NCBI GenBank assembly: GCA_027491315.1
Contig: JAIXWL010000010.1
Location: 62,001-126,000 of the forward strand
Length of the DNA: 64,000 bases
Source: Cytophagaceae bacterium
GTDB lineage: Bacteria; Bacteroidota; Bacteroidia; Cytophagales; Spirosomataceae
Reading direction: 5' to 3'
The position numbers were made by a program, and so were the translations under genes. Shown piece by piece: positions 2,740-61,402 of this stretch. Position 1 is the stretch's first letter. Each line of letters begins with the position of its first letter. The notes below the pieces were generated by a model. That model was not told the origin of the DNA, did not search any database, and worked only from the letters and a program-made list of their open reading frames with translations.

Positions 2740-4740
<2,001 letters not shown>

Positions 4741-4792
4741 CTATTTCCATAGGACAGTCCTCTAAAAATTCTTGAATTAATTTTTTAAAAAT

Positions 4793-4841
4793 AAGGATTT
4801 TTTCCCTGAAAAACTAGCAATACTTCAGGGAAAAAATCCTT
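4793..4841 (-). terminator. Rho-independent terminator of purH
   Basis: An 18-bp perfect inverted repeat, AAGGATTTTTTCCCTGAA at 4793-4810 and its complement at 4824-4841, with a 13-nt loop. On the minus strand the stem is followed by ATTTTTAAAAAATT. It begins 7 nt past the purH stop codon and separates purH from gyrB. Confidence 0.85.
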
Positions 4842-4847
4842 GTAATA

Positions 4848-6368
4848 TTAGTGTTTGAAATGACGAATTCCCGTCATGACCATCGCCATTTGATGAGCAT
4901 TACAGAAATCAATGGAATCTTGATCCTTGATAGATCCTCCTGGCTGCGTAACAGCCACCACACCTGCTTTACTAGCAATCTCCACACAGTCTGGGAATGG
5001 GAAAAAAGCATCAGATGCCATCACCGAACCCTGTAAATCAAAACCGAATTCTTTGGCTTTTTCTATGGCCTGCTTCAAAGCATCCACACGAGAGGTTTGA
5101 CCCACTCCAGAGGCCAATAATTGCCCTTCTTTTGCTAAAACAATAGTATTGGATTTGGTATGCTTACAGATTTTCAAGGCAAAAGCCAAAGCTCTTTTTT
5201 GCTCCTCCGTCGGCGCTACCGTGGTAACCGTTTTAAAATCAGCTACCCCTTCCATCACTAAATCTTTATCTTGTTCCAACACCCCATTCAACAGGGTCTT
5301 AAACATTACCTTTGGAAACTCAACTTGATTTCTTTTTAAAAGAATTCGATTCTTTTTTGTTTTTAATATGGCCAATGCCTCCTCTGTAAACGATGGAGCA
5401 ATTAATATTTCACAAAACAATGGATTGATGGATTCAGCAGCTGCCTTATCTACTTCTTGGTTAGTCGCTAAAACACCACCAAATGCCGATACCGGATCGC
5501 ATGCCAAGGCTTTATCATAAGCCTCTTTGACCGAATTACCTGTTGCCACGCCACAAGCATTCATATGTTTGATGATAACAAAGGCTGTTTCTTCAAATTC
5601 ATCCAATAAAGACAAACAAGCGTCTACGTCAACTAAGTTATTGTATGACAATTCTTTACCATGCAATTTGTCAAACAAAGCCGCTAAATCTCCATAAAAT
5701 TTACCTTGCTGGTGAGGGTTTTCTCCATAACGTAAGGAATGGGAGGGCAAAGTAGTATAATTGGCTAAGTCAGCAGATTCTCCAGCGAAATAACGCTGAA
5801 TGGCACCATCATAATGGGAGGAAACCGCAAATGCCTTTTGAGCAAAACTTCTTCTTTGTTCCAAGGTAGTGCCTGCTCCATTCACTTCAAAAATGGAAGA
5901 AACCTCAGCATATTGATCTCTTGATGACACAATTAACACATCGGCAAAATTTTTCGCCGCACCACGGATTAAGGAGATTCCTCCAATATCAATTTTCTCA
6001 ATAATATCTTCATCAGAAGCTCCTGAAGCTACCGTTTCTTCAAATGGATATAAATCCACCATGACCAAATCCAAAGCAGGAATCTCGTATTGTTTAGCTA
6101 CTTCTACATCAGAAGCATTATCACGACGGTATAAAATACCTCCAAAAACCTTAGGGTGTAAAGTTTTCACACGTCCTCCAAATATGGATGGATATCCTGT
6201 TAAATCCTCCACCGCAATCACGGGAATTCCCAAATCTTCAATAAAGGATTGAGTTCCTCCGGTTGAATATAAGGTCACTCCTTCTTCATGAAGCTTTTGA
6301 ATGATTGGTGCTAAACCATCTTTGTAATAAACAGAAATTAAGGCTGATTGAATTTTTTTAATCGACAT
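4848..6368 (-). CDS. purH: Bifunctional AICAR formyltransferase / IMP cyclohydrolase
   Basis: Carries out the last two steps of purine biosynthesis: formylation of AICAR with 10-formyl-THF, then ring closure to IMP. The N-terminal MGS-like IMP cyclohydrolase domain has YSTGGTQSFIEDLGIPV and GGRVKTLHPKVFGGIL; the C-terminal transformylase has SLRYGENPHQQG and the catalytic-region motif VIIKHMNACGVATG. The C-terminus ends in an RHFKH motif typical of the family. I chose ATG 6368, giving 506 aa that start MSIKKIQSALISVYYK; an in-frame upstream start at 6395 adds nine residues (MWLHLFPSP) not expected in PurH. Monocistronic, with its own terminator. Confidence 0.95.
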   Translation of the reverse strand: MSIKKIQSALISVYYKDGLAPIIQKLHEEGVTLYSTGGTQSFIEDLGIPVIAVEDLTGYPSIFGGRVKTLHPKVFGGILYRRDNASDVEVAKQYEIPALDLVMVDLYPFEETVASGASDEDIIEKIDIGGISLIRGAAKNFADVLIVSSRDQYAEVSSIFEVNGAGTTLEQRRSFAQKAFAVSSHYDGAIQRYFAGESADLANYTTLPSHSLRYGENPHQQGKFYGDLAALFDKLHGKELSYNNLVDVDACLSLLDEFEETAFVIIKHMNACGVATGNSVKEAYDKALACDPVSAFGGVLATNQEVDKAAAESINPLFCEILIAPSFTEEALAILKTKKNRILLKRNQVEFPKVMFKTLLNGVLEQDKDLVMEGVADFKTVTTVAPTEEQKRALAFALKICKHTKSNTIVLAKEGQLLASGVGQTSRVDALKQAIEKAKEFGFDLQGSVMASDAFFPFPDCVEIASKAGVVAVTQPGGSIKDQDSIDFCNAHQMAMVMTGIRHFKH

Positions 6369-16082: not shown

Positions 16083-16505
16083 ATGGGCCGAATACTTATT
16101 CTACTTTTACTTTCATTTAGCAGTTTTGCTCAATCCAAAACGGATGAACAAGCTATCCGTGAAGTTTTAGCTACACAAAATAAACTTTGGAACCAAGGAG
16201 ATATTCCGGGCTTTATGGCCTATTATAATCACTCAGAAGATTTAAAATTCATTGGGAAAAATGGCATTACTCAGGGCTGGGATGCCACCTTAGCTCGATA
16301 TCATAAAAGCTATCCCAATCAAGAAGCCATGGGCCAACTAACCTTTGATATTTTAGAAGTGGATGTAACTGCCTCGAAAACCGCTTGGGTAATTGGAAAA
16401 TGGCATTTAACAAGGCCGAAATTGGGCGATGTGGGTGGTCATTTTACCTTACTTCTTAAAAAAGTAAAGGGTAAGTGGCTCATTTTTAGGGACCACACTA
16501 GCTAA
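16083..16505 (+). CDS. SnoaL/DUF4440-like secreted protein
   Basis: A 140-aa protein with a short signal peptide (ILILLLLSFSSFAQS) and the NTF2-like DUF4440 pattern: EQAIREVLATQNKLWNQGDIPGFM, then YYNHSEDLKFIG, and at the end GGHFTLLLKKVKGKWLIFRDHTS. Such domains bind small ligands or act as simple lyases or isomerases; no catalytic set can be assigned here. Its 3' end overlaps by 8 nt the convergent phosphatase gene. Confidence 0.8.
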   Translation: MGRILILLLLSFSSFAQSKTDEQAIREVLATQNKLWNQGDIPGFMAYYNHSEDLKFIGKNGITQGWDATLARYHKSYPNQEAMGQLTFDILEVDVTASKTAWVIGKWHLTRPKLGDVGGHFTLLLKKVKGKWLIFRDHTS

Positions 16506-17100
16506 TACATTCCAAAGCATAAAACAATTCAGATGCTATTTGCGCAGAACGCTCGTCGTATTGATAAGCTTCGTCTGGGCTATCATCATAATGCTTCGGG
16601 TCTTCATACCTCAATGGAATGCGAGCTGTAGCCCCTGGGATAAAAGGGCAATTTTCATCCGCATGCGAGCAGGTCATCACCGCCGCAAATTGCTGATGGG
16701 GATTGATGGGATTGTCAAAGATTTTGGAAAATGCCATCATGGGCTGGCTATCCTCTGAATGAAAAACAAAATAAACGGGATTCACTTGTCCTTGTTGATG
16801 TACCTGGAATCCAAATCGTTGCAATGAAGCCACTGCTCGTTCATTGAATGCCGTTTCCTCCACGCCGCCAGAATAGGCTTGTAAAGGAATACCAAAATAA
16901 TCAGCAGCCGTTTGAGCCCATATCTGTGAAAATTGACTCCTCCTGGAATTATGGGTACAAATGAAATTTAATCGCAATGGCTTACCTTGATCTAGGCAAT
17001 CTCTCAAATATGCCACTAAAACAGCAATCTGCTCTTTCCTCTCCTGCGATATAGGTCTTTGTCGGATTGCTTGAATGGTTGTTTCTAAGGCTGTAAACAT
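16498..17100 (-). CDS. Low-molecular-weight phosphatase / arsenate-reductase-like protein
   Basis: A 200-aa protein with the LMW protein-tyrosine-phosphatase loop, here LNFICTHNSRRSQFSQIWA (CTHNSRRS, the CX5R loop with catalytic Cys), and the later PDEAYQYDERSAQIASELFYAL tail. This CxxNxxRS form is shared with thioredoxin-linked ArsC arsenate reductases, but the protein is longer than classical ArsC (about 130 aa) and belongs to the Bacteroidota protein-tyrosine-phosphatase group; the true substrate is open. No ars regulator or efflux gene is adjacent. ATG 17100 (MFTALETTI) is preferred over the GTG at 17118. Confidence 0.8.
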   Translation of the reverse strand: MFTALETTIQAIRQRPISQERKEQIAVLVAYLRDCLDQGKPLRLNFICTHNSRRSQFSQIWAQTAADYFGIPLQAYSGGVEETAFNERAVASLQRFGFQVHQQGQVNPVYFVFHSEDSQPMMAFSKIFDNPINPHQQFAAVMTCSHADENCPFIPGATARIPLRYEDPKHYDDSPDEAYQYDERSAQIASELFYALECIS

Positions 17101-17166
17101 GGGTAAAAAATAAATCACATCGCAATATTACGATTTAGCAAGGAGTTCAGCAATCTGGGATAAAAA

Positions 17167-18024
17167 TCAAGGAACAATAACTTGAAAATGATTTGCCAAG
17201 ATCCGAAACTCAAACTGATCTGATATGATTAATTCCCCATCGATTTGGGCTTTTAATTTACGATCAGCGAAAATGAAAATTTGTTTAGCTTTCTCAAAGC
17301 GTAAAAATGAAATACCCTCGTGTTTTCCTTTTTGGATCTTTGGCAGATACCAAATTCGTTTAAAAATGGATAAGGGCTCACAAAGTAAGACATCCAGTTG
17401 ATTATCCCAGATCGAGGCATTGGGTACAAAATGAAAGCCTCCACCCGCTCGGGAGGAATTAAAAACCATGCATAAAAATACTTGTTTCTCTATCCATTCA
17501 TGATCTAAATTCATCCGAACATGAAATGATTTAAAAAGAAACAACTGGGGTATAGCAGCTAAAAAATAACCTATCAAACCGCCTATTGCCCGAATGGTAT
17601 TCATCGATTCCAGCACTTCCCCTTCCAAGCCCATCCCCACACCATTTAGAAATAATTGTTCATTGCAGGTACCCGCATCCACGGATTGAATATGTGCCCC
17701 TAAAATGACCTCTAAATGCTGCTCTTTGGAAATATCGCCATATAACTTCCAGTAAAAATCATTGCCTGTACCTCCTTTAAAAAAAGCTATGGGAATTTGA
17801 CAATCCGAATAGGCATTCGCGAAATAGTTATAGGTACCATCTCCCCCAAGCACCCATACTTGATCAAAACCAGCTAATTGAGCAGGCCAATCTTGGAAAA
17901 ACAAAGTTAATGTAAGCGAATTTTGAGCTTTCAGATTAACTTGATCCTCTACCCAATGTGCATAAGCTTTTGTTTTTGGGGAACAAAAAGGATTAATCAA
18001 AAAGGCGACTTGCTTTATCTCCAC
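17167..18024 (-). CDS. Diacylglycerol/lipid kinase family protein (YegS-like)
   Basis: A 285-aa protein with the DAG-kinase catalytic fold. AFLINPFCSPKTKAYAHWVE opens the nucleotide domain, VWVLGGDGTYNYFANAY is the GGDGT ATP site, IAFFKGGTGNDFYW holds the second glycine motif, and GVGMGLEGEVLE begins the C-terminal domain. Such kinases phosphorylate diacylglycerol, sphingoid bases or related lipids. The start is GTG (18024-18022); no in-frame ATG is close. It is 11 nt after the CBS gene on the same strand, so the two probably form an operon. Confidence 0.85.
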   Translation of the reverse strand: MEIKQVAFLINPFCSPKTKAYAHWVEDQVNLKAQNSLTLTLFFQDWPAQLAGFDQVWVLGGDGTYNYFANAYSDCQIPIAFFKGGTGNDFYWKLYGDISKEQHLEVILGAHIQSVDAGTCNEQLFLNGVGMGLEGEVLESMNTIRAIGGLIGYFLAAIPQLFLFKSFHVRMNLDHEWIEKQVFLCMVFNSSRAGGGFHFVPNASIWDNQLDVLLCEPLSIFKRIWYLPKIQKGKHEGISFLRFEKAKQIFIFADRKLKAQIDGELIISDQFEFRILANHFQVIVP

Positions 18025-18035
18025 ACATCCAAGTT

Positions 18036-18464
18036 TTACATCTGAATATAATTTTTTAGATGCTCAATCGTATCCAAATGGTCTTGAATTGTGGCTGTGA
18101 TCAAATCATTCACCGAAATGATTCCAATAAAATGTCCGCCTTCCAATACGGGTAGGTAACGAATATTTTTTTCAGAAACGATAATCATACACATTTCCAA
18201 GGTGGTTTCCCGGTTAATATGAGGTAAATCGGTCGACATAATCTCCTTGACAGATGCGTCAATGGAGCTTTTACCCAACAGAATTACCTTACGTGCATAA
18301 TCCCTTTCAGTCATTATGCCCAAATACTGGTTTCCATCCATCACAACTACGGAACCAATGTTTTGGTCTTGCATTATTTTCAATGCTTCAATTACATGCG
18401 TATCAGGACCTACGGAAATCGTGTCCCTTTTTCTTTGCGATAAAATGTCATTGACCTTTTTCAT
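18036..18464 (-). CDS. Tandem CBS-domain protein
   Basis: A 142-aa soluble protein made of two CBS motifs: DTHVIEALKIMQDQNIGSVVVMDGNQYLGIMTERDYARK and RETTLEMCMIIVSEKNIRYLPVLEG-type repeats (shown in shortened form; positions about 20-65 and 80-125). CBS pairs bind adenine nucleotides and act as energy sensors. No catalytic domain is attached, so it is likely a stand-alone regulator. It lies just upstream of the lipid kinase on the same strand. Confidence 0.88.
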   Translation of the reverse strand: MKKVNDILSQRKRDTISVGPDTHVIEALKIMQDQNIGSVVVMDGNQYLGIMTERDYARKVILLGKSSIDASVKEIMSTDLPHINRETTLEMCMIIVSEKNIRYLPVLEGGHFIGIISVNDLITATIQDHLDTIEHLKNYIQM

Positions 18465-18537
18465 AGCTTTAATTTTGTGTTGGAATAATTCAAGTTAAAA
18501 CAAAAATATTACAAACAAAAAGCTTTGAACATAAAAA

Positions 18538-18553
18538 AGAGGCCGGAGCCTCT
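18538..18553 (-). terminator. Terminator of the intradiol dioxygenase gene
   Basis: GC-rich hairpin AGAGGC-CGGA-GCCTCT at 18538-18553. On the minus strand it is followed by a T-run (TTTTTTAT), and it lies about 20 nt past the dioxygenase stop. Confidence 0.8.
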
Positions 18554-18572
18554 CATTTTTACATTTGCTAAA

Positions 18573-19319
18573 TTATACGGCTATAAAAATGGTATGATTC
18601 AGATCATATCCACCCGATGAATTGGCACTTACACTGGCCAATTCATTTGACAAAGAATCCTTTATGATTGAATCCGTTGTGTTTTTAGTGGAATTTTGCC
18701 CATGTAATTTGTATAAATCTGTAGCATATACGGCTGTATTAATCTCTTCAGGAAAGGCAATTTGCGTGGTTAGTTTTAACACATTATTCACATAAATTTG
18801 AGCATGAATATGGGTAACTCGCCCTTGGTACCAACCCGGGTAGATCGTTGTGAATTTAGCAATTCCATTAGCATCCGTGGTGGCTATACCTCTACAAAAT
18901 GTTTTAGCTGTATTATCTTGTGTTCCGAGATATCCCGAATTTATATATCCAGAATAATATCCATCCTTATCACAATGCCAAATGTCTACTCTGGCATTAG
19001 GAAGTAATGCGCAATCAGCGTTGACATTTTTAATGGCAATTGTCATATTCAAAGGTATTCCTGTTTTCCCTTCCGTAATATCCGAATGGGTTATACTAGC
19101 GTCCCTTTTATTATACAAGGGAAATGGACCATCAGTTTCAGTATCTCCTACTTTACATGCACTGGTAGATGAACTTGAGCTGGAACTACTTGTAGAATTT
19201 GAAGAACTAGCAGGACTTAGTGTTTCTTCTGATTTACAAGCTATCAAAGCTGCTGGTCCCATCAAAACAGAGGCCCCAGCTTTCCATATAAAATCTTTTC
19301 TTTTCAATGTCTTATCCAT
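18573..19319 (-). CDS. Intradiol ring-cleavage dioxygenase-like lipoprotein
   Basis: A 248-aa predicted lipoprotein: MDKTLKRKDFIWKAGASVLM then a lipobox (LIAC), followed by a Ser-rich linker at about residues 37-53. The rest matches the intradiol dioxygenase fold, with the Fe(III)-ligand motifs VDIWHCDKDGYYSGY (Tyr) and YPGWYQGRVTHIHAQIYV (Tyr, His, His). These enzymes cleave catechols between the hydroxyls. A membrane-anchored, extracytoplasmic version is seen in Bacteroidota and its substrate is unknown. No aromatic catabolism genes are nearby. Confidence 0.85.
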   Translation of the reverse strand: MDKTLKRKDFIWKAGASVLMGPAALIACKSEETLSPASSSNSTSSSSSSSSTSACKVGDTETDGPFPLYNKRDASITHSDITEGKTGIPLNMTIAIKNVNADCALLPNARVDIWHCDKDGYYSGYINSGYLGTQDNTAKTFCRGIATTDANGIAKFTTIYPGWYQGRVTHIHAQIYVNNVLKLTTQIAFPEEINTAVYATDLYKLHGQNSTKNTTDSIIKDSLSNELASVSANSSGGYDLNHTIFIAV

Positions 19320-52626: not shown

Positions 52627-53264
52627 TGAAAAGAAGAGATTATTTAAAAAATATCGGCTTAAGTTCATTGGGCTTAGCTGCATTGAATCCTCAAGTAAAA
52701 GCCATGGAGGCTTTAGAAGGGGCACCCGATCCTAAAAAAGTCGCTCCGATTAAAGTACCCAATGGTAGAACCTTAGATGAAGCGGAACGTGATGCCAAAT
52801 TAATGGCTGAGAAGTTCCTAAATGCGCATGAATTAGCGACGATCACCATATTATCAGATATTATTATCCCGGCAGACGGTAAATCAGGAAGCGCTTCTCA
52901 AGCAGGAGTGACTAAGTTTATTGAGTTTATCGTTAAGGATAAGCCAGAATTTAAAACACCTATGCGAGGTGGATTAAGATGGTTAGATGGTGAATCTAAA
53001 CGTCGTTTCAGTAAAGTATTCACTGAAATTACCCCTAAGCAACGTATTGAGATTGTCGAGGACATCGCCTATCCTGAAAAAGTTAAGCCGCAGTTTTCTC
53101 AAGGTGTTAGTTTCTTTTCTTTGATGAGAAATTTAACAGCCACAGGATTCTATACGTCTAGAATCGGATTGGACGATTTAGCCTATAAAGGCAACACACC
53201 AAACGAATGGAAAGGTGTTCCTGATGACGTATTAAAGCAATACGGATTATCTTACGATGATTAA
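52626..53264 (+). CDS. Gluconate 2-dehydrogenase subunit 3 family protein
   Basis: A 212-aa small subunit with a Tat-type signal (MKRRDYLKNIGLSSLGLAAL). It carries the subunit 3 pattern ATITILSDIIIPADGKSGSASQAG, then FIEFIVKDKPEFKTPMRGGL and a C-terminal SFFSLMRNLTATGFYTSRIG. In known relatives this subunit brings the FAD subunit to the Tat exporter and stabilises it. It is coupled to the GMC gene by the overlap TAATG and overlaps the next gene by 8 nt. Confidence 0.88.
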   Translation: MKRRDYLKNIGLSSLGLAALNPQVKAMEALEGAPDPKKVAPIKVPNGRTLDEAERDAKLMAEKFLNAHELATITILSDIIIPADGKSGSASQAGVTKFIEFIVKDKPEFKTPMRGGLRWLDGESKRRFSKVFTEITPKQRIEIVEDIAYPEKVKPQFSQGVSFFSLMRNLTATGFYTSRIGLDDLAYKGNTPNEWKGVPDDVLKQYGLSYDD

Positions 53265-54003
53265 ACATTCCGATTTATATCTTAAACCGGAAATTTTCAA
53301 ACATATTCCTCATTTAGTGGCGGGTGTAAGTACCCGCCACGGAGGAAAAAGTCAAGCTCCCTATCATTCGCTAAACCTAGGGGTACATACTGACGACTCC
53401 CCTCATATCATTCAGGAAAATTTAAAGCTTCTATGTCAATCATTGGGTATCAATCCCCAAGACTTTGCTAGATCTTATCAAACTCATCAAGATCAAATTT
53501 GGGAATGCCAAAGTCCAGATTATCTGAGTGGATATGATGCCATCATCAGCATTAAAAAACAAATATTTTCAGCTGTTGGAATAGCGGATTGCTGTCCCGT
53601 ATTATTAGTCGACCCCATTCAAAAAATTACTGCTGCTATCCATGCAGGCTGGAAAGGGTCTGTATTAGGCATAGTTACAAAAACGGCCCATGTTTTATTA
53701 GATAAATACCAAAGCAAACCTGAAGATATTTTGGCCTATATTGGACCATGCATTAGTTTAACTCATTTTGAGGTTGGGGATGAAGTGGCTGCCCAATTTC
53801 CTGATGATTGTAAACAAAAACCTGGCCTAAAATGGCATGTAGATTTAAAAAAACATCAGGTAAATCAATTAGAGGGTCTAGGGATTTCCCACATAGAAGT
53901 ATCTCCTTGGTGTACGGTTGAACATAACGAACACTTTTTTTCGCATCGAAAAGAGCAAGGAATTACTGGCCGAATGCTAGCTTTTGCTGGTTTTCGAGAC
54001 TAA
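53257..54003 (+). CDS. pgeF: Peptidoglycan editing factor PgeF / laccase-domain (YfiH) protein
   Basis: A 248-aa protein of the DUF152/YfiH family. It has GVSTRHGGKSQAPYHSLNLG, the metal-site block GIADCCPVLLVDP, AIHAGWKGSVLGIV and GPCISLTHFEVGDEV. Family members act on purine nucleosides and on peptidoglycan precursors; laccase activity was an early assignment. It overlaps the preceding gene by 8 nt. It is the last gene before the RiPP cluster. Confidence 0.92.
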   Translation: MIKHSDLYLKPEIFKHIPHLVAGVSTRHGGKSQAPYHSLNLGVHTDDSPHIIQENLKLLCQSLGINPQDFARSYQTHQDQIWECQSPDYLSGYDAIISIKKQIFSAVGIADCCPVLLVDPIQKITAAIHAGWKGSVLGIVTKTAHVLLDKYQSKPEDILAYIGPCISLTHFEVGDEVAAQFPDDCKQKPGLKWHVDLKKHQVNQLEGLGISHIEVSPWCTVEHNEHFFSHRKEQGITGRMLAFAGFRD

Positions 54004-54121: not shown

Positions 54122-54159
54122 ATGCCTTGACAAGCATTGGGGAATTAAGGCATTTTTTT
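54122..54159 (+). terminator. Terminator-like hairpin upstream of the RiPP precursor
   Basis: ATGCCTT (54122-54128) pairs with AAGGCAT (54147-54153), followed by a run of seven T. It lies 45 nt before the precursor start and about 120 nt after pgeF. It could end the GMC-pgeF transcript or act as a leader attenuator; the 18-nt loop is long. Confidence 0.45.
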
Positions 54160-54203
54160 GAAATTGCCTTCGAAATAATTCAATCAACCTAACCCTAAAC
54201 ACA

Positions 54204-54356
54204 ATGAAAAAGTTAAAATTGACTTTAACTGTTTTAGAAAACAGAGATGCCTCTTTCGGAGGATCAAACGAAGTAGCCCTTGCTGGATCAACTTGTACCT
54301 GTACTTGTACTTGTTGCAAATCAAACAATGATGCACCTGCAGAAGCAACTGCCTAA
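54204..54356 (+). CDS. RiPP (LAP/TOMM) precursor peptide with alternating Thr-Cys core
   Basis: A 50-aa peptide, too short for ordinary ORF lists. The leader begins MKKLKLTLTVLENRDASFGG and continues to ALAG at residue 28; the core that follows begins STCTCTCTCC (S29-C38) and ends KSNNDAPAEATA. Thr and Cys alternate at residues 30-37, with a tenth possible site at C38 and S29 just before. The KKLKLxLxxLEN start resembles leaders of other Bacteroidota RiPPs. The cluster behind it holds a complete LAP synthetase set, so Cys and perhaps Thr and Ser would be turned into thiazole/oxazole rings. The cut after G28 is a guess. ATG 54204 is the only start that includes this leader. Confidence 0.88.
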   Translation: MKKLKLTLTVLENRDASFGGSNEVALAGSTCTCTCTCCKSNNDAPAEATA

Positions 54357-54364
54357 TTATTGAT

Positions 54365-54396
54365 ATGGGTGAAGATTTTTATCTCCACCCATTTTT
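54365..54396 (+). terminator. Terminator-like hairpin after the precursor gene
   Basis: ATGGGTGAAGA (54365-54375) pairs with TCTCCACCCAT (54382-54392), 11 bp with one mismatch and a 6-nt loop, then TTTTT. It starts 9 nt after the precursor stop and 24 nt before the next gene. Partial termination here would let the precursor be made in excess over the enzymes, as in other RiPP operons. Confidence 0.7.
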
Positions 54397-54415
54397 ATAA
54401 AATACCTTTCCACAC

Positions 54416-55282
54416 ATGAAAACTACGATACCCCACCAAGCCATATTTTGTGGTCCAGATTCTCTATTCATTTTAGATGGTGACCAAAATTTAATAGAAA
54501 TCAATGGAGAATCATCCTCCCTTATCAAAGAGATTCTTAACGAAATTAGTCAGGAGCATTCGCTAAAAAGTATTTTCGAAATCCACCAAGATCAATTTGA
54601 AAACGATAATGCCTCATTTCAAGAATTAATAGATTGGATGTTGGATAAACAACTAATCCAACAATCAGCCCAAATTCAAAAAATTAAAATTCATGTATTA
54701 ATTGATTCCTTCCCAACTAAACAATCCGCCTACCTCATTGATTCCCTAAATCAAGTAAATGAAAATCAAATAGAATACATCCAGGAGGACTCCCTCAAGA
54801 ATGCCGATTTAATCCTTTTTGTAGGTTCACTTTTAAATCAACGCAAAAAAATCCAGCAATTAGCCCAACTTAGTTATGAAACAAAAATCCCATTGCTGTA
54901 TTCAGAAATTGATCGTTCGTCCTTCACGATTGGTCCTATTATTTCCTCCGATCTGTTAAGCCCATGCTTGAATTGTTTTGCCGATAGAAAGCAAGTGATG
55001 TTAAAAAATCCCAAAGCTTTTTCGTCCCTACAAAAAGCGCAAAACCACGAATATATTTTCAAGCCATCCCTTAAACATAAATTATATTATGCTGCCTTCG
55101 TGAATTTCCTGGGTCGTGAAATTCAAAAATTTTTCTACTCCAACTTGTCCAATTCTCCTCTGCTGGGTCAAAGCTATTATGTAAATGGACAGTCATTAGA
55201 AATACAAAAAAGCAAAATCCTAAAAGTGCCTCATTGCACCATTTGCAGCAAGAAGAATCAATCCATGACTTTCAATAATTAA
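54416..55282 (+). CDS. SagC-like E1/RRE partner (LAP cyclodehydratase C protein)
   Basis: A 288-aa protein that, in heterocycle-forming systems, binds the leader peptide and presents the core to YcaO. The N-terminal 80 residues are helical and winged-helix-like, as in the RRE domain. The rest has the E1-like pattern ending FTIGPIISSDLLSPCLNC. Two CxxC pairs, C184/C187 and C274/C277, form the typical structural zinc site of these proteins. No ATP-binding site is obvious, as expected for this partner. Starts 59 nt after the precursor and ends 1 nt before YcaO. Sequence identity to known C proteins is low, so the call rests on the pattern and on context. Confidence 0.8.
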   Translation: MKTTIPHQAIFCGPDSLFILDGDQNLIEINGESSSLIKEILNEISQEHSLKSIFEIHQDQFENDNASFQELIDWMLDKQLIQQSAQIQKIKIHVLIDSFPTKQSAYLIDSLNQVNENQIEYIQEDSLKNADLILFVGSLLNQRKKIQQLAQLSYETKIPLLYSEIDRSSFTIGPIISSDLLSPCLNCFADRKQVMLKNPKAFSSLQKAQNHEYIFKPSLKHKLYYAAFVNFLGREIQKFFYSNLSNSPLLGQSYYVNGQSLEIQKSKILKVPHCTICSKKNQSMTFNN

Positions 55283-55283
55283 G

Positions 55284-56567
55284 ATGAAGAATCCAACAAT
55301 AAATTGGGTTAAAGGTGATTTAATCCATGGAAATCAATACCAAATTCCAACAAGAAGGTGCTTACCTACTGGCTTGTTTCAAAGCTATGTTGAAGCCTCG
55401 CATCTCAATTTATTGGCTTCGAATACTGACAAGATCCAAGGTTCAGGAATTGGTTTTAATCAAATTGAGGCTCATAATTCAGCCATAGGTGAATGGGTAG
55501 AAAGATATGCTGCCTCTCATCAAGATTTCAAGGACTTGGTATTTGCCACGGAAGATGAATTAAAAAGTCAGCACAAATCAATTTTACCTGTTGAATCCTA
55601 CATTCCCTTTCTTCCAGAACAATATGGAGAAGATTTACCATATCACCCTTGGAATAAAGAGGCTAAAATTAGTTGGATTGAAGGTAAAAATATATTGAAC
55701 CAACAGTCCATTTTGGTACCAGCCTTCGCTGTTCATTTACCCCATAATACGGATTGGGATCAAAAAAAGTCCTATGTTCTTCAAACTTCCACAGGAATAT
55801 CAGCAGGAGAAAACTTACAAAAATCCATGATAGGAGGCTTTTTGGAATGCGCTGAAAGAAATGCATTTGCTGAATTTTGGTACCGACAAGATTATTGGAT
55901 ACATCGCATTAGACGAATGAATCAAAGCTCAGTATTAAAGGCCTACCCAAACCCAAACATCCAGCATTTATTTGATAATACGAGAGTTCAAATCCAACTA
56001 TTTGATTTATCTCCAATTAGTCCGATTGAAACGCACGTGGTTGTTTTATTTTTCCCGTACAAAGGACAAATACTCCAATCCATGGGCTGTGCTGCTCGAT
56101 TTAATCGGGAAGATTCCATCATCAAAGCATGCTTGGAAGCTTACCAAGGAATTGAATATGCCATTGGATTAAGTCAAAAACCTACTGACTGGATACTAGA
56201 TCAGGAAGGATTTGTTTCCATCAATAGTTTTGACAAGCATTTTGCATTTTATAATCGCTTTCCTCATTGGAGAGTAAAATCTCCCATACTTCAAGCCGCC
56301 TCCTTGTTGGATACCTTCTTTCCAAAAAATGAAAAAACAAAGAAAAAAATTCGTGCTTGGGAAGAAGTAAACCAGCTTGGCTTAAGTCATATTTTGGTCG
56401 TACCCTTAAGCACAGAAGATGTACAATCCCAAGGTTTTGAAGTAGTCCGAGTGATTGTCCCTGGGTGGAATTTACTCACCGGAGTACATACTCAGCCCTT
56501 TTTGAAAAATTTACATCCACAAGTAGGTGAAAACCTATTTACTACCTATCCACATCCTTTCCCATAA
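55284..56567 (+). CDS. YcaO-family azoline-forming cyclodehydratase (D protein)
   Basis: A 427-aa YcaO protein that uses ATP to activate backbone amides and form thiazoline/oxazoline rings on Cys, Ser or Thr of the core. The ATP site is seen as HNSAIGEWVERYAAS (S66, E70, E73), GGFLECAERNAFAEFWY (E188, E191) and ACLEAYQGIEY (E285, Q288). The protein ends in YPHPFP, i.e. P423-x-P425-x-P427, the PxPxP tail of azoline-forming YcaO enzymes that is required for cyclisation. The C protein is a separate gene, 1 nt upstream. YcaO relatives that make thioamides or amidines lack this tail, which argues against those reactions. Confidence 0.93.
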   Translation: MKNPTINWVKGDLIHGNQYQIPTRRCLPTGLFQSYVEASHLNLLASNTDKIQGSGIGFNQIEAHNSAIGEWVERYAASHQDFKDLVFATEDELKSQHKSILPVESYIPFLPEQYGEDLPYHPWNKEAKISWIEGKNILNQQSILVPAFAVHLPHNTDWDQKKSYVLQTSTGISAGENLQKSMIGGFLECAERNAFAEFWYRQDYWIHRIRRMNQSSVLKAYPNPNIQHLFDNTRVQIQLFDLSPISPIETHVVVLFFPYKGQILQSMGCAARFNREDSIIKACLEAYQGIEYAIGLSQKPTDWILDQEGFVSINSFDKHFAFYNRFPHWRVKSPILQAASLLDTFFPKNEKTKKKIRAWEEVNQLGLSHILVVPLSTEDVQSQGFEVVRVIVPGWNLLTGVHTQPFLKNLHPQVGENLFTTYPHPFP

Positions 56568-56570
56568 ATC

Positions 56571-57290
56571 ATGAAAACAAGATTCATTTTTTTACTCCTC
56601 ACCTTCCTATTACCAAGCATTTGCTGGTCACAAGGCAATTTAGAATCCTTCATTCAAGATGTTCAAAAAATAACTTGGAAGACACCTAAAGATAGTTTAC
56701 AAAAAATCATATCCTCTATGAATAACCATCCCAGCAACGACTATTACTATTGGTATTGGAATGCCTATGCACATTATATGGATTATTTCAATTATAAAAT
56801 ATCTATACCTGCCGAAGAGAAAAAAGCACAGTTATGCCTAGAAGAAGCCAGCAAATACTTAAGCAAAATACCCAAATCTAACTCTGAAACCCTGGCTTTG
56901 CAGTCGCTCATAGATGGCTTGAAACTCAATTTTACCAATGTCTTTTTATTGCCTATTAAAGCCGGAAAGGTGGGTAAATTAGCCGAAAGAGCCATCGAAT
57001 TAAATCCAAAAAATCCTCGTGCTTATTATGCATTAGCGATTTATGATTTTTATACCCCAAAAATGTATGGAGGTAGAAAAATCGTAGAATTAAATCTGAG
57101 CAAAGCCATTTCACTCCCTTTAAGCTCACCTGAAAACGCGAAGGAACCACAATGGGGAATCACGGAATCCTATTTATTCCTCATTCGATATCTAAAGGAA
57201 GAAAATCAAAAGGCTAAAGCATTACACTATTTGCAAGAGGCCAAAACCAAGTTTCCGAATAATACCTTATTTCTTCAGTATAAACTTTAA
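56571..57290 (+). CDS. Secreted TPR-repeat protein of the RiPP cluster
   Basis: A 239-aa protein with a signal peptide (FIFLLLTFLLPSICWSQ) and helical TPR-like repeats; the best is AERAIELNPKNPRAYYALAIYDFY at residues about 133-156 and ALHYLQEAKTKFPNNTLFLQY at the end. It is periplasmic by prediction. No enzyme motif is seen. Its place between YcaO and SagB with 3- and 4-nt gaps shows it is part of the operon, with a possible role in binding, export or immunity, which is inference. Confidence 0.75.
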   Translation: MKTRFIFLLLTFLLPSICWSQGNLESFIQDVQKITWKTPKDSLQKIISSMNNHPSNDYYYWYWNAYAHYMDYFNYKISIPAEEKKAQLCLEEASKYLSKIPKSNSETLALQSLIDGLKLNFTNVFLLPIKAGKVGKLAERAIELNPKNPRAYYALAIYDFYTPKMYGGRKIVELNLSKAISLPLSSPENAKEPQWGITESYLFLIRYLKEENQKAKALHYLQEAKTKFPNNTLFLQYKL

Positions 57291-57294
57291 CACC

Positions 57295-58125
57295 ATGGCA
57301 AAGGTCAGAAACCTATTATTTGAACCGTGCATTGCTGATGTTTCCTATGATTTTTTGGAACAAAGTAAACTTTATAGCTTTCAAGCTAAGGAATATGGTG
57401 AGCGACTTAATGCGGTTATGTCCAGTGACTATTTCATGAGACATATCAGTCAGCATAGCATTGAGTTGGGATTTTGTGAAGAATATGATTTATTGAAAAT
57501 GGATGAAATACCTCCTTTGGCGCAAGCCTTGAATCATTTAAATCGCCTAAGAAATAGCCAAAGAAATTACGACCAAATCAACAAAATATCTTTGCAAGAC
57601 CTTTCCCATTTTCTTCAGCTGAGCTATACCATAACCCAACGGTTTGACGCATCATTATTAATGCCTCCACGTAGAAATATACCATCCGGGGGAGGCTTAT
57701 ACCCTATCGATGTGTACCTCATAAACCAACATATTACCGAGCTTCCTTTAGGTGTCTTTATATACGACTTGTTTACCAATAAACTTAAATTATTGCATGC
57801 TTTTGACCTTCAAGAATCGCTAAATCAAGCATTAAATAAGACCCTGTTTGCTCAACAAAAAAATGATATAGATTATAGCCATGCCAGTGCATTTTTAGTT
57901 TTAGGGGCAGAATTAGAGAGATCTTGTTTCAAATACCTAGACAGAGGCATTCGCTGGGCTATCCTAGAGGCAGGAGAAATCGTGCAAGCCATGTATTTAG
58001 CAAGCGCATCTTTAGACCTGGGAAGTTGTGCTATCGGGGGATTCAATGATGAAGCCTTAGCTCAGTTAATCGGCTATCAAAATCCAAGTCAAATTACACT
58101 CTTAGCTCTAGCCTTAGGAAAATAA
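57295..58125 (+). CDS. SagB-type FMN-dependent azoline dehydrogenase (B protein)
   Basis: A 276-aa nitroreductase-fold protein that, in LAP systems, oxidises azolines to aromatic azoles with FMN. The key motif PPRRNIPSGGGLYPIDVYL lies at residues 124-142 and the C-terminal part has EAGEIVQAMYLASASLDLGS followed by GGFNDEALAQLIGY, as in SagB/McbC proteins. It starts 4 nt after the TPR gene. Its presence means the rings in the final product are likely oxidised to thiazoles or oxazoles. Confidence 0.88.
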   Translation: MAKVRNLLFEPCIADVSYDFLEQSKLYSFQAKEYGERLNAVMSSDYFMRHISQHSIELGFCEEYDLLKMDEIPPLAQALNHLNRLRNSQRNYDQINKISLQDLSHFLQLSYTITQRFDASLLMPPRRNIPSGGGLYPIDVYLINQHITELPLGVFIYDLFTNKLKLLHAFDLQESLNQALNKTLFAQQKNDIDYSHASAFLVLGAELERSCFKYLDRGIRWAILEAGEIVQAMYLASASLDLGSCAIGGFNDEALAQLIGYQNPSQITLLALALGK

Positions 58126-58126
58126 C

Positions 58127-59294
58127 ATGAGCTTACCTACTTAATCCTGACTTTAAGCTGATTTATCAGAAGGAAAGTTCTGAAGATCTGTTTTTTAAAC
58201 ATTCTTGGAAGGATTGTCTTATTCAAATCAGTCAATTAGAATGGGAAATACTATCCCATTTGGTCAAGCATCGAGATCAACATAAAACATTGGCTTACTT
58301 GAGGCAAAGTTATGAGGCAGATATTAACATCCTACATCAATTAATAGAGTATTCCCTAGAAATCGAATTACTGATTCCAGAGGAATCCTATGAAGCATAC
58401 TTGAACCAAAAGCATCAGAAGATTAAGCAAGGTATTTCAACTTGGAAAATGGGGGTTATTAAACTATTTTCTCTACTATCTATACCCATTGAATTCATTG
58501 GTAGTGGGAATCTACGATTTTATAAAATTGCCAAAATTCCATTGGAGAATACTTGGATCGAGGTTTTAGCAAAGAATTCTATCTTTCAATATGCCTTTAT
58601 TTCCCTGAATATAATTCTATTCACCATGGGTGTTTACCCAATAGTTAACAATGCACAATTTCTTCAGCAATGGCTATCGTTCGAATTATGGGGTGAAAGT
58701 TCGATGCTACTACCTTTTTTAATTGTCGGCTTATTAGTTACAAGCTTTTTACATGAACTAGCCCATTATACCACCTACTTGAGATATGGTGGAATGGTAG
58801 CAGATTTAGGGTTTTCTTGGGTACTAGGGTTCATTCCATTTATTCATATTACTACCAACTCGCTTCATTTCTGGGAAAATAATACCCATAAAAGAATCGT
58901 CATATTGGCAGGTATCCTACTAGACCTTTCCTTATTCTTGGGCATAAATTTTATTTTGAACTTGAATCTTGACAAAGTCTGGTTATCTCATTGGCAATTC
59001 TTACAAGGCTTTATTGCTTTCCGTGTTCTATTTAATAGTATTCCTTTTATCCCCGGAACAGATGGATATTTTTTAGTATCAGACTGGCTAAAAGAACCAG
59101 CTCTTTTTCATGAAGCTAGTCGCTCATTTCAAAAATTCAAATCGACCATCTTTCAAAGGGAAGCTAAAGAATTACGTACCAAAGACTATATCTACCTAGC
59201 CTATATCTTAATGAGCTATTGCTTTATTACAGCCTATTACTGCCTACTTGCTCTTTGGATAATCCTTCCCTATTTCATTAGTATTCTACCATGA
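58127..59294 (+). CDS. M50-type membrane metalloprotease with RRE/PqqD-like N-terminus; 5' end apparently frameshifted
   Basis: Open frame 58131-59294 gives 387 residues. The only standard start in that frame is TTG at 58260, but the 43 codons before it read as well-formed protein (NPDFKLIYQKESSEDLFF... to EWEILSHL) and continue in helical style, like a PqqD/RRE leader-binding domain. The ATG at 58127, 1 nt after SagB as expected in this operon, is in another frame and hits TAA after 5 codons; one extra base lies within about 58130-58142. The C-terminal part is a site-2-protease-like membrane enzyme: HELAH at 58752-58766 and NSIPFIPGTDGYF, with about five membrane segments. It may remove the leader or aid secretion. 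Confidence 0.72.
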
Positions 59295-61402
59295 AAAGAA
59301 TAAGTTTACTCCTTTGTTATTTAGCATTTTCAAACCTGTCCAATGCACAAACTGGAATTAAGGGAAGAATAATTGACCACTACCACCAAATTTATTTGGA
59401 AAATGTAAGCTTATATTTAATCCAAAATAAACTCAGCTCAATCAGCGATTCCACAGGCTCATTTGAATTCAAGCCATTAAACAAAGGACTTCCAGATACA
59501 TTAATTGTATCCATTCTAGGTTACAAAAAACGAATAATCCCCATCACGGATTATCTATTTAAAAACATTCAACTTGCCTTAGATAAGCCTAATGCGCTTT
59601 CAGAAATTAAAGTAAAAGCAAGTGTTCCTATGTCGGAAGATTTTGTAAATCAAAAATTAAATTTCTTAGATGTGGTATTAAATGCTTCCTCAAAAGCAGA
59701 CCCTCTATTGGCCGTACAATCCTCCACTGCTGCTAGTCCCTATGGAGAATCTGCCACCATCAGTTTTCGTGGCAGTAATCCCCAATTAAGCCAAATTTAT
59801 ATCAATGATATTCCCATACCTGAACCAGTCAAGTTCACCCAAATGTCGAGCATAGGAACTTTTAGCCTTATTCCCATCAATACGCTTAAAGATTTACTTA
59901 TTTTCCCAAGTAACCCTCCAATTGACCTGATGAATGCGAGCACCGGTGTCGTTCAAATTCAAACCATTGAATCATTCAATAAGCCAAAAGTCGAACTAGA
60001 TCTTAGCCTTGGACAAGCAGGTCTTTATTGGACTCCTTGGGTTAAAGGGAACAATGGAATAAGTGTTTTTGGGCATCATCAGTTTGGTACTTTATTAAAA
60101 CACCTTAACCCAAAGTCTTTTCTTGATTTGCCCCATTTTAATGAAAGTGATTGGGGAATAAATGCCCATTTTCAAACAAAAAACCTTTGGAGAATTAAGC
60201 TCTTTAATTTATTTATGACGGAAAAATATGCAAGTCTATTTCGGCATCCCTCCTATGAGGGTTTATTTACTTATCAAAAAACGAGACATGTTCAAACGAT
60301 CAATCTGTCGAAATTGCTTGAACGTGCTCAATGGACTTTCAAATTTGGACTGCATGAGTCTGACCAACAGGATAGCACAGGGAATTATGTATACCGACCT
60401 AAATCGATTCACATTTTCAGTGGCATCGATTTTCAATTATTTCCAAAAGAAAGTTGGACTATAAAAATGGGTTATCAATGGCTACAAGCCAAAACCAATT
60501 ACCAAATAAAAATTCCCTTTTATAACTTTGATTACCGACCACAATCACGTTTTATACCCTATTCCAATAAATCTCAACTATCACAACATGACCTTTTTAT
60601 CAGCAGTAACTATTCAATATCGAATTCATTTAGGATAGGCGCTGGCCTTAAACTCACACATTCTAGTCCTGAAAATTTATCACTTTTTTCGCATCAGCTT
60701 CACACAAGATGGTATATTCACGATTCTAAAACCTATACCAACCTAGCATGGAGCAAGCAAATAGCCAGTCTATTCCATACCGAAAAAGGTTACATCTGGG
60801 TCAATACCCAGCAATTATCATGGGATATTATTCATGAAAAAGAATTATCCAAATGGAGTTTTAATGCTTTTTATAAAACAGAAAAATCCGTCTTAAATGA
60901 AGGAAAAGCATGGGGAACAGAGTTAAACTACAGTCTTTTAAGGGCGAAATCAAAACATGAAATTGGCATTGGCAGCCATTGGAGTGAAATTCAAACAGGA
61001 TCTATTATTCAAAAATCCCCCTTCCAAATTCCCTATTTTTTGCGTACCCAATCACAATGGAAATGGCCTTGGTTTGATGTAAGTATCAGCCAAATCATCC
61101 GCTCGGGAAATTATTATAAATCTCTAGTAGCTTCTACATATGACCCTGACTTGAATATCCATATTCCACAATTTGAAAACGTGGCCAACAAGACTTTATC
61201 TCCCTATTGGAGGATGGATGCCATGATTAGTAAAATCATTCAAAAAACCGATAAATCTTCATGGATCATTTATTTGTCTGTCGGTAATATAGTCAACAAG
61301 GACAATGTTAGAGCCATGAATTACAACCAAGATTACCAATTTTCCTTTCAAGAATTTTACCAGAAAAGAATTTTCTATCTAGGCGTTCAACTGAGATGGT
61401 GA
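59291..61402 (+). CDS. TonB-dependent receptor of the RiPP cluster
   Basis: A 703-aa outer-membrane receptor with a signal peptide (LLLCYLAFSNLSNA), a carboxypeptidase-regulatory-like domain (residues about 20-95: DHYHQIYLENVSLYLIQNKL, SILGYKKRIIPI), a plug (ATISFRGSNPQLSQIYINDI, then ASTGVVQIQTIE) and a beta-barrel ending in FYLGVQLRW. It is shorter than SusC proteins and has no SusD partner, as in siderophore-type receptors. It overlaps the protease gene by 4 nt (ATGA), so it belongs to the RiPP operon. It could import the finished peptide, its metal complex, or mediate immunity. Confidence 0.88.
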   Translation: MKRISLLLCYLAFSNLSNAQTGIKGRIIDHYHQIYLENVSLYLIQNKLSSISDSTGSFEFKPLNKGLPDTLIVSILGYKKRIIPITDYLFKNIQLALDKPNALSEIKVKASVPMSEDFVNQKLNFLDVVLNASSKADPLLAVQSSTAASPYGESATISFRGSNPQLSQIYINDIPIPEPVKFTQMSSIGTFSLIPINTLKDLLIFPSNPPIDLMNASTGVVQIQTIESFNKPKVELDLSLGQAGLYWTPWVKGNNGISVFGHHQFGTLLKHLNPKSFLDLPHFNESDWGINAHFQTKNLWRIKLFNLFMTEKYASLFRHPSYEGLFTYQKTRHVQTINLSKLLERAQWTFKFGLHESDQQDSTGNYVYRPKSIHIFSGIDFQLFPKESWTIKMGYQWLQAKTNYQIKIPFYNFDYRPQSRFIPYSNKSQLSQHDLFISSNYSISNSFRIGAGLKLTHSSPENLSLFSHQLHTRWYIHDSKTYTNLAWSKQIASLFHTEKGYIWVNTQQLSWDIIHEKELSKWSFNAFYKTEKSVLNEGKAWGTELNYSLLRAKSKHEIGIGSHWSEIQTGSIIQKSPFQIPYFLRTQSQWKWPWFDVSISQIIRSGNYYKSLVASTYDPDLNIHIPQFENVANKTLSPYWRMDAMISKIIQKTDKSSWIIYLSVGNIVNKDNVRAMNYNQDYQFSFQEFYQKRIFYLGVQLRW

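Follow-up and report, generated by a model that had tools for sequence, protein, structure and literature searches.

A divergent, probable azole-peptide gene cluster of Aquirufa with a HusA-family protein and a putative TonB-dependent transporter

Linear azol(in)e-containing peptides (LAPs), or thiazole/oxazole-modified microcins (TOMMs), have been described mostly as antibiotics and toxins, and the gene sets for streptolysin S, microcin B17, plantazolicin and phazolicin comprise a precursor, the C, D and B proteins and a SagE-type protease. We analysed a stretch of 64,000 nucleotides, referred to below as the window (contig JAIXWL010000010.1 of assembly GCA_027491315.1, positions 62,001 to 126,000), from a 2.92-Mb genome of Aquirufa, a genus of harmless freshwater bacteria. 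In this window a precursor gene and genes for C, D and B proteins share one block with genes for a tetratricopeptide repeat (TPR) protein, an M50-like protease and a TonB-dependent transporter. HusA, a TPR-like protein, is a porphyrin-binding haemophore proposed to pass porphyrins to the TonB receptor HusB (PMC6173696), and TonB transporters accompany most methanobactin operons, with MbnT serving import (PMC3621798).

We suggest that the block may be a linear azol(in)e peptide system that brings along its own carrier and its own transporter in the outer membrane, a description that in our judgement could hold or fail about equally well. The sequence comparisons given below show the gene identities, the gene order, the co-conservation of the genes, purifying selection on the precursor and the kinship of the TPR protein with HusA.

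The precursor, the HusA-family protein and the transporter

In the six Aquirufa species that carry the cluster (the window genome and Aquirufa nivalisilvae, A. beregesia, A. rosea, A. aurantiipilula and A. ecclesiirivi), the precursor (MKKLKLTLTVLENRDASFGGSNEVALAGSTCTCTCTCCKSNNDAPAEATA) varies at residue 44 only. The precursor proteins are 98-100% identical across these species, compared with 54-86% for the six other cluster proteins, while the precursor gene of each of the five relatives shows 12 to 29 nucleotide differences from the window copy over its 153 positions. The mean ratio of nonsynonymous to synonymous differences per site (pN/pS) was 0.024 for the precursor (15 pairs). It was 0.16 for B, 0.19 for the TPR protein, 0.25 for D and the TonB transporter, 0.27 for M50 (computed without the first codons of the window copy) and 0.30 for C, and for the flanking genes pgeF and gmc1 it was 0.20 and 0.018, respectively. 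The precursor is thus under strong purifying selection, in its leader as well as its core; its near-invariance had escaped the first-pass annotation made from the window sequence alone. Recent horizontal spread was considered as a cause of the identity and rejected, since the mean synonymous divergence (pS) of the precursor (0.45) resembles that of the flanking gmc1 (0.47).

Across all six reading frames of the window, the precursor is the single stop-free stretch of at least 25 codons to have five Cys in a span of 12 residues, and it recurs in 6 of 222 genomes of the family, all six being Aquirufa and among the eight genomes with this YcaO (D) protein. The border between leader and core was provisionally placed near residue 28. 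As a short peptide rich in Cys, Ser and Thr, with a leader and beside the enzymes, it has the features of a LAP/TOMM precursor. Filing it under the streptolysin S family (TIGR03602) was rejected, as both the window precursor (11.5 bits) and that of genome G249 (19.8 bits) remained below the cut-off of 35.

Profile scans for the YcaO protein gave matches in 8 of 222 genomes of the family (E 1e-30), 7 of 390 of the order (E 1e-60, even sample), 2 of 395 of the phylum (E 1e-60, even sample) and, at E 1e-40, in 1 of 120 genomes of the G249 genus and 2 of 395 of the G553 order (even sample); the order, phylum and G553-order samples overlap with the family scan. The matches above these differing cut-offs, together with Myroides phaeus, amount to 12 genomes, spread over 7 lineages and at least two orders. 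All 12 have C, D and B as well as a HusA-like TPR gene near the YcaO gene, and 11 have the TonB gene, the twelfth being Myroides, where the 6.8-kb contig ends. The M50 gene is full length in 10 (with the window copy out of frame at its start), short and sub-threshold at locus L054, and was not found at L053. ABC-2 type exporters occur in 3 of the 12, one of the permeases scoring below the Pfam cut-off.

Precursors were detected in 10 of the 12 genomes, namely the six Aquirufa and those with loci L029, L024, L025 and L054; none was found in the 253 bases before the C gene of Myroides (L023), where the contig starts. The L029 homologue (tblastn E 4e-7) has a different core and shares with Aquirufa the leader motif LxLT....ENRDxSFGxSxEV, of which a shorter form, LxL...ExxD, extends to L024 and L025 and thus to four of the five precursor types, the L054 leader being different. 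At L053, a 28-residue Ser/Thr/Cys-rich open reading frame (ORF) at 561-647 was not accepted as a precursor; it lies about 1.3 kb before ATP-binding cassette (ABC) transporter genes and could be a precursor fragment or a chance ORF. Near the precursors of L024 and L025 we also noticed genes for ClpB-like AAA+ ATPases (16380-18959, by Pfam, and 262-2928, by eye and in two neighbouring frames, respectively), and L024 has in addition a DUF6734 gene and a 752-residue gene lacking a Pfam match. These products are possible protection or processing factors.

The TPR protein had been described earlier as secreted, and it has a signal-like N-terminus (judged by eye); its kinship with HusA had been missed. 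In phmmer it matched HusA with E 2.2e-6 over residues 60-212, and a profile of its family, which takes in two second copies, those most like HusA, matched HusA with E 4.9e-24, the next match being at 0.097. By sequence, these matches assign it to the HusA family. One HusA-family gene, that of the cluster, was present at E 0.01 in the window genome, the only genome in which the frequency of such genes outside clusters was measured. A second HusA-like gene stands beside the TonB gene at L024 (6475-7131) and L025 (9225-9872). In an alignment of 14 HusA-like cluster proteins, the only one of our alignments to include L053 and L054, W130 of HusA (in RWxxYG) is kept only in these two second copies.

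The transporter of the window carries a CarboxypepD_reg domain (PF13715, 32.3 bits; cut-off 32.2). Among the related cluster receptors, that of L029 scored above the plug cut-off (24.7 bits) and that of L024 above the barrel cut-off (PF00593, 52.7 bits), and plug scores remained below the cut-off for L025 (18.3), L053 (21.4) and L054 (23.5). The L054 receptor, from another order, aligns with that of the window over 620 residues (25% identity, E 2e-53), the L029 receptor over 341 residues (E 1e-43) and the L053 receptor over 231 residues (E 3e-13; profile E 2e-33). At E 1e-20 the receptor was found only in the six cluster-bearing genomes among 38 Aquirufa genomes, the same six that have the YcaO gene, so that no receptor-only 'cheater' genomes were seen.

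Gene layout, enzymes and genomic site

The first-pass annotation had described a compact block of seven genes on one strand, and all seven were indeed found on the plus strand at the positions it gave (Table 1). It had also described the gaps after the precursor as 1-4 nt or an overlap. This was borne out for C-D (1 nt), D-TPR (3 nt), TPR-B (4 nt) and the 4-nt overlap of M50 and TonB, and is only imperfectly true of the B-M50 junction, where no in-frame start codon occurs until 58260. The precursor and C genes are separated by 59 nt. The order of the seven genes is maintained in all six Aquirufa carriers, and chance or mis-called ORFs were rejected on the basis of this order, the recurrence of the cluster, the pN/pS of the precursor and its unique Cys-rich ORF.

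Table 1. Features of the Aquirufa cluster, in window coordinates
Feature	Position	Strand	Remarks
Near-invariant stretch before precursor gene	54149-54203	+	six-species alignment
Precursor peptide	54204-54356	+	50 aa; putative leader ~1-28, S29-C38 (STCTCTCTCC) as the heterocyclisable stretch, then a C-terminal tail
11-bp hairpin in the precursor-C gap	54365-54392	+	covariation
C protein, TOMM leader-binding / truncated E1-like partner	54416-55282	+	TIGR03882; two CxxC motifs
D protein, YcaO cyclodehydratase	55284-56567	+	PF02624; C-terminal PHPFP
HusA-family TPR-like protein	56571-57290	+	HusA profile; N-terminal signal-like sequence judged by eye
B protein, SagB-type dehydrogenase	57295-58125	+	TIGR03605, PF00881
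M50-like intramembrane metalloprotease	58131-59294	+	HELAH and PGTDGY; 5' end without canonical start
Putative TonB-dependent outer-membrane transporter	59291-61402	+	CarboxypepD_reg domain (PF13715); related cluster receptors

The C protein scored 39.1 bits with the E1-like/leader-binding model TIGR03882 (cut-off 36.9). Its earlier description as a SagC-like partner holds to this extent and does not extend to the full SagC model TIGR03603 (37 vs 187.65 bits); no Pfam match above cut-off and no PDB sequence match up to E 0.1 were found for it. Its CxxC pairs are also present in L023 and L024. The D protein matched the Pfam YcaO family with 157.3 bits (cut-off 25.7, E 7.7e-46) and the SagD-family model TIGR03604 with 155.5 bits, below the cut-off of 219.25. 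The B protein is of the SagB type, as had been proposed (126.8 vs 78.4 bits; PF00881 E 3.5e-19). Since the SagD and full SagC models remained below their cut-offs, C and D are divergent members of the SagC and SagD families.

In nine aligned YcaO proteins, E70, E73, R74, E188, E191, R192, E285 and Q288 are invariant, as is the C-terminal P423-x-P425-x-P427. We take these residues to be the ATP-site acids, whose lack had been named beforehand as an argument against function, and the functional C-terminus. Six PDB entries were matched by the D profile, MusD (3e-16), LynD (4e-10), TruD (1.4e-9), MJ1094 (5.2e-9), McbD (6e-7) and YcaO (3.9e-5). MusD, LynD, TruD and McbD are enzymes of azole/azoline peptide pathways, and MJ1094 and the E. 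coli-type YcaO act outside such pathways, which leaves some room for another YcaO chemistry. C, D and B all match their families, and the cluster would very probably form azoles; calling the three proteins direct evidence of azole formation, as was done earlier, overstated a case that is built on homology.

The M50 frame of the window is open from 58131 and contains no ATG, GTG or TTG until the TTG at 58260, so that the first codons (58126-58260) are out of frame in this one genome, a feature overlooked at first pass. All five relatives (for example A. nivalisilvae 59G-WUEMPEL, contig NZ_SEWX01000008.1) have an intact 387-residue gene with an ATG start, and the break could stem either from the assembly or from a genuine lesion. 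Owing to its frame, the window copy was excluded from the M50 alignment. Both motifs of Table 1 are present in the window protein, and H208, E209, H212 and D311 are invariant in nine of nine aligned relatives, in agreement with the M50/S2P motifs. The score with PF02163 was 15.0 bits, below the cut-off of 27.2. A daptide assignment was rejected, as the HExxH protease model NF041824 gave 44.2 bits, below its cut-off of 300. The first 90 residues looked PqqD-like by eye, and the L029 copy gave a weak PqqD-type match (WgkC, E 0.0081); a Pfam scan of nine members found no PqqD there, and a RiPP recognition element (RiPP: ribosomally synthesised and post-translationally modified peptide) at this N-terminus is a tentative suggestion.

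The YcaO gene is present in 6 of 38 Aquirufa genomes (6 of the 16 high-quality ones), and the comparison of neighbourhoods that had been proposed at first pass revealed the whole seven-gene block at the same site in these six, bordered in each by pgeF and a minus-strand CarboxypepD_reg-like gene. By pgeF the carriers are the six nearest genomes (76-83% identity; others with a match 58-65%), so the cluster marks one clade. The pgeF gene itself (window 53257-54003) is 72-89% identical within the clade and evolves much faster than gmc1 (at least 97%). Among nine cluster-free genomes compared, the two flanking genes adjoin in six, with 0-183 nt between the aligned ends. Of the other three, G007 (L042) has 1.6 kb between them, at about 3378-4999, and the contig of L044 stops 229 nt after pgeF. 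In G026 (L046), the second flanking gene was not found in the 3270 nt after pgeF (from 5049 on), an arrangement that does not match a simple empty site. The six empty sites have the appearance of one gain at a single position, or of loss from the remaining lines. On plasmids, 24 records had relatives of the YcaO, with 19.7-29.8% identity among the 20 matches listed.

Around the precursor, about 55 nt upstream of the start are near-invariant, as consecutive 20-nt bins of the six-species alignment have 16/20, 18/20 and 17/20 identical columns (the final bin extends 5 nt into the gene), and the region further upstream mostly is not. This stretch is a possible regulatory or 5' untranslated element. 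A regulon sharing it was rejected, as a 26-nt part of it occurs at one site of the genome with up to 3 mismatches. In the hairpin that follows the precursor gene, 97.0% of 66 cells are paired and 3 of 11 pairs have two-sided changes, and its covariation score was reached in 4 of 500 shuffles. It is a possible attenuator or mRNA stabiliser, and perhaps raises the precursor to enzyme ratio.

Proposed function and alternative readings

In the proposed pathway, the C protein would bind the precursor leader with its LxL...ExxD motif, the YcaO would cyclodehydrate Cys, Thr and Ser within S29-C38, and SagB would oxidise the rings to azoles. The M50 protease would then trim the leader and free the peptide at the inner membrane. 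At 20.026 Da lost per azole, the calculated monoisotopic neutral mass of a C-terminal fragment starting at G28 is 2250.832 when unmodified, 2150.701 with five azoles and 2050.570 with ten; for a fragment starting at S29 the corresponding values are 2193.811, 2093.679 and 1993.548. Outside the cytoplasm, the HusA-like protein may bind the flat hydrophobic product or its complex with a ligand, and the TonB transporter would move the product, working with the HusA-like protein. We lean slightly towards the view that this carrier and transporter indeed partner the product. That they serve uptake, rather than killing or export, is a tentative choice. The product would most likely serve capture and uptake, either in the manner of a metallophore or by carrying a planar ligand, for example a porphyrin. 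Haem itself is not predicted as the ligand, because three of the four residues through which HusA contributes to haem binding (L123, V124, W130 and Y164; PMC6173696) are replaced in the window protein. A standing physiological role is favoured by the invariant precursor, the single site in one clade and the receptor that never occurs without the enzymes in the 38 genomes. The recurrence of azole enzymes with a haemophore-related protein in all 12 genomes and with the TonB gene in 11 of them, across at least two orders, points to a use other than as an antibiotic or toxin. It is possible, and we propose it with clear reserve, that Bacteroidota have a class of polyazole peptides for nutrient capture, in which a chain of thiazoles and oxazoles made by YcaO and SagB acts as metallophore or planar-ligand carrier, a HusA-family protein has been recruited to carry this product and a TonB importer is devoted to it.

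Several observations weigh against the proposed system as a whole. The invariance of the precursor comes from six species of one clade, and its pS of 0.45 is below that of the other cluster genes (0.67-0.76). The fold match of the TPR protein to HusA was tied with unrelated TPRs; of the HusA residues named above, Y164 alone is kept (window Y161), and N120, F121 and L127 stand where HusA has L123, V124 and W130, so that haem binding was not supported by residue retention and the protein is not filed as a haemophore. HusA-like genes might also go with TonB genes generally. In the window receptor, the Plug domain (PF07715) scored 17.3 bits, below the cut-off of 23.9, and no barrel match was found. 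The receptors of L024 (profile match only, E 8e-17) and L025 (not listed in the profile test; tblastn E 2.5e-9, 173 residues) are related to it weakly. Since an unrelated window ORF came up with E 5e-4 in the same profile test, such weak matches may be due to no more than a common N-terminal domain. From lineage to lineage the cores differ, as those of bacteriocins do, although all stay Cys-rich, and the Aquirufa cluster has no exporter gene.

An alternative is a bacteriocin- or cytolysin-like LAP released to kill competitors, with the HusA-like protein and the transporter serving self-protection or recapture. We consider this doubtful, though the variation of the cores between lineages and the toxin record of the class speak for it, as the LAPs characterised so far mostly act against bacteria or lyse cells. 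The cores include CTCTCTCC, CCCSCCCSCC (L029), CCCNCNSCCCC (L054), CCCTTCCC (L024) and, in the two precursors of L025, CCCCCCC and CCCCCCCC. The weak streptolysin S match of the G249 precursor and the ClpB-like ATPases near the L024 and L025 precursors, as possible protective factors, would fit as well. However, a precursor that is invariant across six Aquirufa species save for one residue, in a cluster confined to one site in the six pgeF-nearest genomes, is unlike a diversifying weapon, and profile scans of nine window proteins turned up neither an identifiable immunity gene nor an exporter within the cluster. Some known toxins of the LAP class are conserved too, which weakens the argument from invariance.

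The frame break near the M50 start, at a gene that is intact in the five relatives, suggests that the cluster could be decayed or silent in the window genome and yield no mature product. This would be compatible with any reading of the family and is unlikely, as the rest of the M50 frame is open, like the other six genes, and a lone break in one genome can come from the assembly or be circumvented at the downstream TTG.

Less probable still is a secreted signal or surface compound that is exported via the TonB-type protein, while the HusA-like protein would escort it through the periplasm. TonB-dependent secretion has a precedent in Myxococcus, where Oar is required for the secretion of PopC (PMC6434023), the Aquirufa cluster contains no other export gene, and 3 of the 12 relatives have an ABC-2 inner-membrane exporter; yet TonB transporters usually import, and HusA pairs with an import receptor (PMC6173696). 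Finally, that the YcaO installs a thioamide or amidine instead of azoles is very improbable: Bacteroidales YcaOs do include the amidine-forming ItfB (PMC10352776), but the E1-like partner, SagB, the C-terminal PxPxP and the Cys/Thr/Ser-rich core suit azoles, and no TfuA-like match was found among the nine window proteins scanned.

If the capture-and-uptake proposal is true, the cluster would specify an azole RiPP with a nutrient-capture role, which would explain the invariant precursor within the genus. It also provides a direct test of the ligands of HusA-like proteins outside Porphyromonas.

Comparison with described systems

The earlier remark that no described product was known for this gene set agrees with our search of open-licence PMC papers, which returned no description of such a cluster; subscription papers and preprints lie outside that search, and absence from the open literature is no proof of being unpublished. 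Within the same scope, no paper was found for Aquirufa with 'biosynthetic gene cluster', and none of the papers listed for HusA homologues had a RiPP in its title. The text of a 2015 TOMM survey contains no words starting with Flavobacter, Chitinophaga, Spirosoma, Chryseobacterium, TonB or M50 (PMC4603692).

The Bacteroidales radical SAM and YcaO clusters share with the Aquirufa cluster a RiPP-type YcaO enzyme and the phylum. They differ in their amidine-type YcaO, the radical SAM enzyme and the peptidase-containing ABC transporter (PCAT), and the words SagB, TonB and M50 are absent from the text describing them (PMC10352776). Methanobactin operons likewise encode a Cys-rich ribosomal peptide, mostly with a TonB importer (PMC3621798), and the bulbicupramide RiPP of Microbulbifer is another Cys-rich ribosomal peptide whose cluster is conserved across a genus (PMC12538549). 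Both kinds of cluster have a multinuclear non-haem iron-dependent oxidative (MNIO) enzyme in contrast to the YcaO and SagB found here, and the Microbulbifer core varies, whereas the Aquirufa core is constant within the genus (PMC12538549). As no MNIO-type match was found among the nine window proteins scanned, filing the cluster as a methanobactin operon was rejected. HusA/HusB of Porphyromonas gingivalis (PDB 6bqs/6crl) resembles our cluster in having a TPR-like protein of the same family and a TonB receptor in the block, which here stand inside a peptide-biosynthesis block and with only one of the four haem residues kept (PMC6173696).

In its chemistry, the Aquirufa block is a divergent LAP/TOMM cluster. 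It shares with described LAP/TOMM sets the precursor with a Cys/Ser/Thr core, the C protein, the YcaO and SagB, and differs from them in the M50 metalloprotease, which stands in place of a SagE-type protease, in the absence of an ABC exporter in Aquirufa, and in the addition of a HusA-family protein and a TonB transporter. What is new here is the near-invariant precursor, the HusA-family TPR protein and the presence of a HusA-like gene near the YcaO gene in all 12 genomes and of a TonB gene in 11 of them, and the novelty of the cluster lies in its joint HusA-TonB module.

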